NCBI GenBank assembly: GCA_002281555.1
Contig: NCGJ01000010.1
Span: forward strand, 290,419-354,418
DNA: 64,000 nt
Direction of reading: 5' to 3'
DNA from: Hydrogenophilales bacterium 28-61-23
GTDB taxonomy: Bacteria; Pseudomonadota; Gammaproteobacteria; Burkholderiales; Thiobacillaceae
The translations under genes and the position numbers were made by a program. The notes under the pieces are model-generated. The model worked only from the letters and a program-made list of their open reading frames with translations. It searched no databases and was not told the DNA's origin. Positions 61,674 through 64,000 of this stretch are shown in pieces (position 1 is the first letter of the stretch; each line of letters opens with the position of its first letter).

Positions 61674-62567
61674 GTGGCGGGCAAAGGCAAGCGCGTTATC
61701 CCCCGCGTTATCCCCCGCGTTGTCCCCATATCACCGGCGCAATCCGCGCCGCCGCCGGAAGAAATCCGGCCCGGCCAATCCATCGAACTGCTCAAGGAAC
61801 TGCACATCCTGACCCGCGATGGCAAGTTGAATCAGGACAGCCGGCGCAAGCTGAAGCAGGTCTATCACCTGTACCACTTCATCGAACCGCTGCTGGACGA
61901 AGTCATGGCCGCGAACGGCGATCTGACCCTGGCCGATCACGGCGCCGGCAAGTCCTATCTGGGCTTCATCCTGTACGACCTGTTTCTCAAGGACAGGCAG
62001 AGCGGCCATATCTTCGGCATCGAAACTCGCCCGGAACTGGTCGAAAAATCGCAAGAACTGGCTGCGCGCCTGGAATTCCAGCGCATGGCGTTCCTGAATC
62101 TCAGCGTCGAGGAGTCGATCGCATCGAGCGCATTGCCGGAACGGATCGACATCGTCACCGCGCTGCACGCCTGCAATACCGCCACCGACGACGCCATCCG
62201 CTTCGCGCTGCAAAAACAGGCCCAATTCATCGTTCTGGTGCCCTGTTGCCAAGCCGAGGTCGCGGCCGTGCTGCGCAAGAACAAGAACGCCTCGTTCACG
62301 AAAACCCCGCTGTCCGAGTTATGGCGGCATCCCATCCACTCGCGCGAATTCGGCAGCCACCTGACCAACGTACTGCGCTGCCTGCTGCTGGAATCGCACG
62401 GCTATCAAGTCACCGTGACCGAACTGGTCGGCTGGGAACATTCGATGAAAAACGAACTGATCGTCGCCCGCCGCCACGGCGCCGCGCGCGGCAACGCCCG
62501 CGAACGGCTCGAAGCGATCCTGGGCGAATTGAATCTGGCAGAGTTGAAGCCGCGTTTCGCCTATTGA
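61674..62567 (+). CDS. SAM-dependent methyltransferase
   Basis: A 297-residue protein with GTG start one base after the DUF1415 stop. LADHGAGKSYLGFILYDLF is the SAM-binding motif I, ALHACNTATDDAI motif II-like, and VPCCQAEVAAVL matches the Methyltransf_32/tRNA-type class. Its substrate is unknown. The N-terminus contains a 12-bp repeat encoding RVIPRVIPRVVP. The upstream genes and the lack of other partners give no further clue. Confidence 0.85.
   Translation: MAGKGKRVIPRVIPRVVPISPAQSAPPPEEIRPGQSIELLKELHILTRDGKLNQDSRRKLKQVYHLYHFIEPLLDEVMAANGDLTLADHGAGKSYLGFILYDLFLKDRQSGHIFGIETRPELVEKSQELAARLEFQRMAFLNLSVEESIASSALPERIDIVTALHACNTATDDAIRFALQKQAQFIVLVPCCQAEVAAVLRKNKNASFTKTPLSELWRHPIHSREFGSHLTNVLRCLLLESHGYQVTVTELVGWEHSMKNELIVARRHGAARGNARERLEAILGELNLAELKPRFAY
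61693..61728 (+). repeat. Three 12-bp tandem units encoding RVIP in the methyltransferase N-terminus
   Basis: GCGTTATCCCCC occurs twice at 61693-61716 and a third, diverged copy (two changes) ends at 61728. The unit is a multiple of three, so copy-number change stays in frame. Confidence 0.9.
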
Positions 62568-62791
62568 AGCGCCAGCGCGGCAAGCGATCCGATCAGTCAT
62601 CGATTTCGTTAGTCGCGAACTCAACACGCAACCCAGTACAAGCGTCAATTGCCGCGAAGCGATGTCAATCGGCTTGCAAATTTGACCAGACATCAACGCC
62701 TGCTGGCGCGTGCCGACATGCCCCGGGAAAAAAGGGACGGAAAAACCGGTCTGTCTCCTGTTTTTCGAGCATCGTCGACGCCATGACCACC
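62568..62791. other. Gap between the chromosomal methyltransferase gene and the DUF1697 cassette
   Basis: These 224 bp probably contain the left boundary of the horizontally acquired segment. There is a fragment at 62639-62676 with CAAGC/GCTTG ends and a CGCTTCGCGG-like centre resembling the middle of an attC, but no RYYYAAC core on the correct side was found. No gene is supported. Confidence 0.35.
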
Positions 62792-63370
62792 CTACGAAAC
62801 CAACGGTTTTCGGGGTGTTTCTTGAGGGGCGTCGGGTTCACCAACCAACGTCTGCAATTTAAGAATGGTTGCCCAGTTTCTGGTCGTCACTGATCTACCA
62901 GCTTTGCCGAGTAATGCTTTACCGGCTTTGCTTTCCAGGATGCCGGTTGCGCAGTGCAAGTACGCGGCATTCTTGCCAACCAAGAACTGCTCAGGCAACA
63001 CGACCAAAGATTCGACTGCACCAAGCCCAGATAGCGTGGCGCTGTCTTGAGCGAAGACAACCAAGAGATGTGAATGATTGGTTGCCTGATCGGCCAACTG
63101 GTTCTCACCAACGATAGCCGACAACTCTTTCGCCGACTTGACGATGACGGGTACTTCCATCTTCAGTTGTTCCGATATGGCGGCGGCTATGTTCGCTGCA
63201 TGCTCGGTCTGCGTTCCCTTGGTTGCTTGGAATACGGCGTTGCCGCTATTCAGCAGCGTAGCTACGTCTGTGTACCCAAGTTCAGTCAGCAAGGCTCGCA
63301 GATCGGCCATGGGAACCCGCTTGGCCTTGCCAACATTGATGCCACGCAACAGAGCTACGAACTTCGGCAC
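62792..63370 (-). CDS. DUF1697 domain protein on a putative integron cassette
   Basis: A 192-residue protein with the DUF1697 signature FVALLRGINVGKAKRVPMADLRALLTELGYTDVATLLNSGNAVF. The family is a frequent integron-cassette passenger of unknown function. It starts at a GTG only 7 nt after a GTTAGGC core (63378-63384 on the minus strand), a typical cassette leader. Its GC content and codon use are visibly lower than those of the housekeeping genes on the left. Confidence 0.9.
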   Translation of the reverse strand: MPKFVALLRGINVGKAKRVPMADLRALLTELGYTDVATLLNSGNAVFQATKGTQTEHAANIAAAISEQLKMEVPVIVKSAKELSAIVGENQLADQATNHSHLLVVFAQDSATLSGLGAVESLVVLPEQFLVGKNAAYLHCATGILESKAGKALLGKAGRSVTTRNWATILKLQTLVGEPDAPQETPRKPLVS

Positions 63371-63377
63371 TTGCGAC

Positions 63378-63626
63378 GCCTAACTACGCAGTAGAAAAAC
63401 CCACTCAGGGGCCACACCAAACAAATTTACGGAGTGGCTTACCCCTTCCCCAACCCGAGATCGTCGAATACAGGCTATTTTGAACGGTCGATTTTTTGTC
63501 ATTTCAGGTTGTGAATTAGAAAAGTGGGTTTTTCTACAACCTCAACGTAGAGCTAACCGGCGCTGCGCGGCTTTATCGCGCAGCGTCCAGCGACCGAAGG
63601 GAGCGAGGTTGAGCGCCATGTTATGC
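63378..63626 (-). other. attC-like recombination site interrupted by a 147-bp element
   Basis: On the minus strand the R'' core is GCATAAC (63620-63626), containing the TAA of the upstream cassette gene, and an R' core GTTAGGC is at 63378-63384. Between them the arms TAACCGGCGCT (63554-63564) and AGCGCCATGTTA (63612-63623) pair. A perfect 9-bp hairpin, CGCTGCGCG (63561-63569) with CGCGCAGCG (63577-63585), forms the stem. An alternative compact attC uses GTTAGCT (63551-63557, minus strand) as R'. A 147-bp element at 63391-63537 lies between the compact site and GTTAGGC. Confidence 0.6.
63391..63537. mobile_element. MITE-like 147-bp element, copy A, with 15-bp terminal inverted repeats
   Basis: The ends GTAGAAAAACCCACT (63391-63405) and AGTGGGTTTTTCTAC (63523-63537) are perfect inverted repeats. 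The interior encodes nothing and contains 37 bp (63439-63475) repeated exactly in copy B. The left end is 6 bp (TACGCA) from the cassette core GCCTAAC. No target duplication is evident. Confidence 0.7.
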
Positions 63627-63878
63627 ACTTATCTTGGTGCTAGGTTCGTCATCTTCGGTGAAGGCCCATGGAATTTCTCGTTTGAATATAGTGATGGATT
63701 CCTCGACAACGCTTAGCGGCACGTCCTTCTTGTACAGGGAAACCTCTCTCGATTTCTTGGTGTCGTCGCGAAAAATCTCTAGCGTCAATTCATCGTCTAG
63801 ATAGATTTCGACGCCAATACCATCACGGTCGTGTACATCGCTTGCAACAACCACCTTGATTTGTGGATTGCTATCCAT
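63621..63878 (-). CDS. Orphan cassette protein of 85 residues
   Basis: The protein begins MDSNPQIKVVVASDVHDRDG and is acidic, with alternating beta-strand-like pattern (GVEIYLDDELTLEIFRDD). No family was recognised. The ATG lies 24 nt after a GTTATGC core (63903-63909, minus strand), and the TAA stop is embedded in the GCATAAC core of the following attC-like site. Both features are hallmarks of integron gene cassettes. The frame is open further upstream to 63929 but that would run across the core. Confidence 0.65.
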   Translation of the reverse strand: MDSNPQIKVVVASDVHDRDGIGVEIYLDDELTLEIFRDDTKKSREVSLYKKDVPLSVVEESITIFKREIPWAFTEDDEPSTKISA

Positions 63879-63902
63879 TGGTGAGTTCAATTTGGAGGAA
63901 GT

Positions 63903-63909
63903 GCATAAC
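63903..63909 (-). other. Cassette core site GTTATGC
   Basis: On the minus strand this reads GTTATGC, close to the GTTRRRY crossover consensus, and is preceded by AGCGTC then the end of element copy B. It marks the upstream boundary of the 85-residue cassette. Confidence 0.6.
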
Positions 63910-63915
63910 GACGCT

Positions 63916-64000
63916 GTAGAAAAACCCACTGCGGGGCCAAATCTAGCTTATTTCTGGGGTGCCTTACCCCTTCCCCAACCCGAGATCGTCGAATACAGGC
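63916..64000. mobile_element. MITE-like element, copy B, cut by the window edge
   Basis: The end GTAGAAAAACCCACT (63916-63930) is identical to copy A and lies 6 bp from the core GCATAAC (63903-63909), again with a 6-bp spacer (GACGCT). After 33 bp, as in copy A, the 37 bp at 63964-64000 match 63439-63475 exactly. The rest lies outside the window. Confidence 0.75.

Follow-up and report, generated by a model that had tools for sequence, protein, structure and literature searches.

To our knowledge, the only mobile elements that specialise in attC sites are the IS1111-attC elements and group II introns. Group IIC-attC introns are mobile retroelements targeting attC; the elements described here, at 159 bp, are too small for a reverse transcriptase, their long form carries a DDE transposase, and at gathering scores Rfam matched no family except SRP RNA in nine loci of the host genome. 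MITE-like repeats reportedly flank a whole class 1 integron (so the title of Gillings from 2009), and are likewise small, non-autonomous and tied to integrons, whereas the present elements lie inside the array at attC joints.

In the available portions of three reports (PMC11187229, PMC12444791, PMC11089894), the IS1111 group is the only one whose insertion sequences are described as targeting attC. Members of this group (IS110/IS1111; for example ISKpn4 and ISPst6) combine a DEDD transposase, RNA-guided target choice and subterminal repeats, according to the available text of PMC11187229. The elements of this study resemble them in their fixed insertion place in attC and work like an IS1111-attC element, but are not members: their transposase is of DDE and not DEDD type and belongs to the IS1182 family, their repeats are terminal, a GTT borders them at either edge, and there are small non-autonomous elements of the same kind (MITEs). 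Within the IS1182 family, IS1272 and TnSha1 choose their targets as hairpins; IS1272 deletes the hairpin it targets or takes its place, with no primary-sequence consensus and no target duplication (available sections of PMC5678879 and PMC4923244). In the elements considered here the transposase family is the same but the attC is kept up to the GTT, the cassette edge is intact where detected, and the site is a GTT that stands on both sides.

Four named elements (ISPa7, ISPa22, ISPse1 and ISMno38) and two unnamed ones represent other IS1182 insertion sequences with partly similar ends, for example GAGGCTGTGTGGAAAC in ISPse1. Their transposases are 24-32% identical to those of the clade described below, and none of the six, with one copy each, ends at GTT; ISPse1 has a GTT 10 bases off, accepted by the looser of two attC finders, and table columns in the available part of PMC3281130 read as a 4-bp duplication for this element. 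ISPa7, which is only distantly related within IS1182, stands beside intI1 on plasmid pXWY of Pseudomonas (L147:119-2739), with neither end at GTT. Phyllosphere cassette transposases are 49% of IS5 type, their target being unnamed in the available part of PMC11089894, and may include elements of the present kind. No report of IS1182 with attC targeting was found in the literature searched, a scope outside which lay ISfinder and most subscription papers: the available portions of PMC9137128 and PMC9908598 (IS1182 and attC) report no IS1182 targeting of attC, and that of PMC10057117 (IS1182, integron and gene cassette) makes no link of IS1182 to attC targeting.

Two elements at the end of the window

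The window, which is the whole stretch of 64,000 nucleotides analysed, contains two repeats near its end. From sequence comparison we conclude, with a probability of roughly 0.8, that these are one complete and one cut transposase-less element abutting the GTT of a cassette core, likely placed by an IS1182-family transposase whose own insertion sequence has the same ends. An earlier note on this DNA had offered two explanations. Its non-autonomous element with attC-specific insertion is supported by ends common to a transposase-bearing insertion sequence, by scattered copies beside attC sites and by the presence of element-free attC sites; its alternative, a non-coding cassette part copied by recombination, does not fit, since an insertion sequence with a transposase gene has these ends too and element-free attC sites exist.

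Both copies have the terminal repeat that the note had described, GTAGAAAAACCCACT, which in copy A occupies 63391-63405 and recurs exactly inverted at 63523-63537 and in copy B begins at 63916, and the cassette cores GCCTAAC and GCATAAC are present as claimed (Table 1). Comparison with other host-genome copies corrected the boundaries, enlarging the supposed 147-bp unit at 63391-63537 to the 159 bp of Table 1. What had been taken for 6-bp spacers, TACGCA and GACGCT, form the outer margin of the terminal repeat GACGCTGTAGAAAAACCC (worn in copy A), and the distance to the core is 0 and not 6. The far edge of copy A, which the note had left out, also touches an attC core, so that the element sits in a cassette joint at GTT, the strand-exchange point of IntI; only the cassette-side edge of copy B is visible. 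The ends of element A, GAGGTTGTAGAAAAACCC (63543 to 63526) and the inverse of TACGCAGTAGAAAAACCC (63385-63402), match at 14 of 18 positions, and A and B are 85% identical over 98 bases from the core to the window end. Position 64000 is also the end of the contig (G000:C25:354418), and copy B is incomplete in the GCA_002281555.1 assembly.

Table 1 Features at the right-hand end of the window
Feature	Coordinates	Strand	Remarks
ORF, 192 aa, next after element A	62792..63370	-	
GTTAGGC (GCCTAAC on +), cassette-side core by element A	63378..63384	-	5′ edge of following cassette
Element A, complete 159-bp non-autonomous element (MITE)	63385..63543	-	bordered by GTT at either edge (minus strand)
GTT (AAC on +), R′ core of attC adjoining element A	63544..63546	-	stem side
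attC of small cassette	63544..63626	-	R″ GCATAAC (63626 to 63620) to R′ GTT (63546 to 63544); strict attC finder
Small gene cassette, flanked by elements B and A	63544..63909	-	ORF 63621-63929 mostly inside
GTTATGC (GCATAAC on +), cassette-side core by element B	63903..63909	-	5′ edge of small cassette
Element B, 91 bases, cut by contig end	63910..64000	-	intact terminal repeat GACGCTGTAGAAAAACCC; 77/91 bases identical to A

The R″ of the attC between the elements is the exact complement of the small cassette's own 5′ edge. Single-strand folding of this attC is weak (z -1.2), which weighs against our preferred explanation. The 192-aa ORF is putatively DUF1697-like; no attC was seen by eye behind it.

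An IS1182-family partner in the host genome and beyond

Sixteen matches to the element at E<=0.001, too many to be due to chance, occur in the host genome, where copies lie on scattered contigs beside attC sites; five of the matches are complete units, 158-159 bp long and flanked by GTT at either edge. Read on the minus strand, the cassette reading direction, complete copies run GAGGCTGTAGAAAAACCC ... GGGTTTTTCTACAGCGTC with some changes and with GTT at each side. Every one of the 18 exact inner ends in the host genome abuts GTT/AAC. An exact 22-mer search of the genome-contig set gave 0 matches. Nor do the 159 bp form part of every attC, the case in which the note's proposal would have failed: element-free attC sites are present in the same genome. 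The unoccupied sites compared, C27:57345 (3′ arm 93% similar over 44 bases) and C15:67721 (89% over 52), are other loci with a similar 3′ arm and not orthologous sites.

The autonomous partner is present in the host genome as pieces, namely an insertion sequence with the same 18-bp ends, and is an IS1182-family DDE element, not an IS1111-attC element or a group IIC intron. Transposase fragments lie on contigs C23, C19, C7 and C6. On C23 and C19 a MITE-type end is followed by the start of the transposase gene, C7 holds the remainder and the other end, and the contigs stop inside; the ends of the insertion sequence are identical to those of the complete host MITEs. The best family for the C7 transposase was the IS1182 model NF033551 (E 2e-66), its 224.9 bits lying below the curated 270 bits in a frame that has no N-terminus at the contig end and appears by eye to stop early. 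The domains found were DDE_Tnp_1_6, DUF772 and DDE_Tnp_1, and among the covering rows of a 34-row alignment that includes six outgroups the catalytic residues are kept in 33/33 (D), 33/33 (D) and 30/30 (E). Terminal inverted repeats, as found in IS1182 elements, are represented by the 18-bp ends of the element, with similar ones in its relatives and in ISPse1; the 158-159 bp units have the characteristics of MITEs in carrying no transposase, having the ends of a co-resident insertion sequence and being bordered by GTT direct repeats.

Relatives with the same or similar ends were found in Hydrogenophilales, Nitrosomonas, Pseudomonas, Cognatazoarcus, Alteromonadales and a Verrucomicrobia MAG. 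Eleven loci come from named records of a Hydrogenophilales MAG, Nitrosomonas europaea, another Nitrosomonas, Pseudomonas benzenivorans, P. cuatrocienegasensis, Serpens gallinarum, Cognatazoarcus, a Verrucomicrobia MAG and a Pseudomonadota MAG. Targeted search identified such ends in Pseudoalteromonas relatives, both of them in L097 and one in L096. A relative of the transposase was present at E<=1e-30 in 21 of 399 genomes of the order and at E<=1e-40 in 4 of 398 genomes of the phylum (host included in each), while 136 of 72,556 plasmid records matched it, every match at less than 60% identity. A quick tree of 34 transposases, made without bootstrap, splits 28 elements of the GTT-abutting kind from the six other IS1182 elements with an SH-aLRT of 99. 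The 5′ end of the transposase usually faces the attC stem, an orientation reversed in three separate branches (6 rows); L096 and L144, with one end seen each, were assigned no direction.

Transposase-less units of 158-160 bp occur in the genus and the family of the host, and the order sample adds genomes from four further families (G308; G339 and G217; G261; G439). Among 19 MITE units read, 5 from the host and 14 from elsewhere, GTT stands on both sides in 18 and on one side only in L030, and other short units of 99, 113, 134 and 168 bp also have GTT at both sides. The 99-bp element (L137:1498-1596 in G180:C593), which has the same ends, is the smallest seen with two GTTs. In an alignment of 17 of these 19 units the cores correspond, weakly in the case of G308. 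The two G308 MITEs, L123:96-254 (159 bp) and L087:3882-4039 (158 bp), have inner ends AAAAAGTC and AAGAAGTC that resemble those of other clade members more closely than that of the resident insertion sequence, AAAAACCC. An origin of the MITE as a deletion derivative of the insertion sequence was considered and rejected, the core matching no interior among the IS loci compared.

It could be argued that these are dead repeats, old remnants no longer mobile that recombination copies along with the cassettes, as truncated or interrupted host copies (on C4, C23 and C15 and at C11:175207; a further one on C24 is cut by the contig end), the apparent early stop in the C7 transposase frame and the worn ends of copy A would suggest. 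We consider this unlikely, however, given that similar copies occupy different sites with different flanks (97% identity in P. benzenivorans, 96% in G308), that complete MITEs keep to 158-160 bp across several bacterial families and that GTT/AAC is retained at all host sites with an exact inner end.

Several further features of the host genome were observed at or near such elements. At G000:C6:308-346 (L050:308-346) the right end of one insertion sequence, GTT and the left end of another follow each other, the element thus standing beside itself at GTT. A weak integrase match with two stops at G000:C15:65925-66059 (L026), near a half MITE at C15:67037, is perhaps a decayed second integron site. 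Behind a half MITE, a cassette ORF of 287 aa at G000:C23:108862-109725 (L012:8862-9725) has, by eye, a TIR-domain-like stretch beginning HDVFISHASEDKDDF and is possibly a defence gene.

GTT siting, the attC side and the cassette side

Siting was assessed at transposase-bearing loci in 43 copies or fragments, the host pieces on C7, C6, C23 and C19 being counted separately. The inner terminal repeat was sought over a range of up to 620 bases; flanks played no part in the choice of ends, and the motif variants came from earlier inspection. Ends were found in 39 of the 43, and 54 of 59 ends abut GTT/AAC, where chance would give 2 of 64 triplets. Two-ended copies have a GTT direct repeat in 16 of 20 cases, a departing triplet at one end in the other four and a conflicting sense in none. 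The five departing ends (GAC in both G308 copies, whose 3′ end is 3 bases longer, and ATT, ATC and AGA once each) speak against strict GTT siting. Independently of the transposase, the exact 15-mer GCTGTAGAAAAACCC abuts GTT/AAC at 59 of 61 sites read in 399 genomes, so that copies at random positions without a core, which would have contradicted the note, amount to 2 of 61 exact inner ends. Outside the host genome the 15-mer occurs at 44 places in the 399 genomes, with 41 of the 43 read abutting GTT/AAC and the remaining one showing GTT; the reversed pattern gave 2 matches in the same genomes. The host genome contains 70 ACGTTRRRY sites with a G at a fixed distance after, and the core alone therefore does not explain site choice. 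A preference for C before GTT, present at 77 of 78 stem sites, was rejected as an extra choice, for C also precedes GTT at 16 of 18 attC-like GTTRRRY sites, at least one of which is occupied.

On the stem side a strict box-based finder recognised an attC in 47 of 76 cases, compared with 148 of 4216 random GTTs taken from those loci as controls, and a looser finder in 57 of 78 against 375 of 2304. A fold-based test separated sites from controls poorly (37/76 versus 137/1128; 14 versus 62 with stricter pairing), which also counts against our preferred explanation, and gave way to box-based recognition. Among the 21 of 78 stem sites that fail the looser finder, 13 are attC-like by eye and eight are not (L056, L071, L091, L106, L114, L127, L133 and L137, where L091 joins one element to another), so either insertion does not strictly depend on the hairpin or these sites have decayed. 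On the other side, examined in 47 selected loci, the cassette begins directly at the element: its R″ reproduces its first nine bases in 13 of 45 cases versus 20 of 1980 swapped pairs, and its first seven in 26 of 45 versus 313 of 1980.

The main rival to transposition by an IS1182-family enzyme is that the elements are themselves gene cassettes, a unit TTGAGG...GTCG cut and pasted by IntI at G^TT. Both edges do lie at this crossover, a GTT on each side is expected from IntI cassette insertion as well and so counts against our preferred explanation, and an integron integrase gene lies beside one array (C23:107073-108017). A cassette would carry its own attC at the 3′ end, but at that end the strict finder scores an attC in 2 of 64 elements, which is the control rate. 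The looser finder fires in 25 of 64, with the match inside the element, partly because the terminal repeats pair, and is for that reason a weak witness. Matched terminal repeats, a long form with a DDE transposase, the stem sites that are not attC-like and an element reversed in three branches, unexpected under the fixed polarity of IntI, lead us to regard movement as a cassette as quite improbable.

Folding was also considered for the MITE itself. The consensus fold of 17 MITEs comprises the stem made by the terminal repeats, a hairpin of two pairs and a short stem, GGGG/CCCC; for 4 of its 23 pairs some sequence has both partners altered, three of these pairs lying in the terminal repeats, and no RNA structure is claimed. 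That the unit is kept by selection rather than transposition, serving the integron as an RNA, terminator or insulator, would account for the length and core blocks conserved across families but appears very improbable in view of this scant covariation, the Rfam result, the several attC sites without the unit and, for positions 62500-64000 of the window, the absence of any promoter-like site and a number of terminators no greater than in shuffled sequence.

A proposed route of insertion at attC

Insertion by an IS1182-family transposase, which we favour, could proceed as follows. The transposase would bind the terminal repeats GASGCTGTAGAAAAACCC and excise the element, which would be inserted at the 3′ foot of an attC (NCGTT), perhaps with recognition of the attC hairpin fold as by IS1272 of the same family. 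Gap repair would copy the GTT, giving a 3-bp target duplication with no cassette sequence lost, and the MITE would move in trans via the same DDE transposase. Hairpin recognition by a transposase of this clade is plausible by analogy, and the eight stem sites that are not attC-like imply tolerance in any such recognition. The start of the element with its GTT, GTTGAGG or GTTGACG, is near the R′ consensus GTTRRRY, and an occupied attC may therefore still serve IntI; in that case the next cassette might carry the element along as its 5′ leader.

More broadly, and as a tentative suggestion about which we are doubtful, there may be a clade of DDE insertion sequences with their own MITE families specialised on the folded attC, reading the hairpin, inserting at the IntI crossover and rebuilding the R′ core through the GA(G/C)G behind GTT, so that the integron would never be broken and IntI would spread the element as the leader sequence of whichever cassette follows. 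One recombination point would then serve both transposon and integron, and a second, unrelated transposase family at the same point would make the attC hairpin a general landing pad. The known habit of IS1182 elements, hairpin targets, would be linked to a precise and testable site.

Annotation may treat such MITEs as cassette sequence, and the assembly of arrays breaks where repeats form contig ends, as at position 64000. Contigs C25, C24, C23, C19 and C7 of the host genome end inside the repeats or the insertion sequence, and its cassette arrays are thereby fragmented in the assembly.
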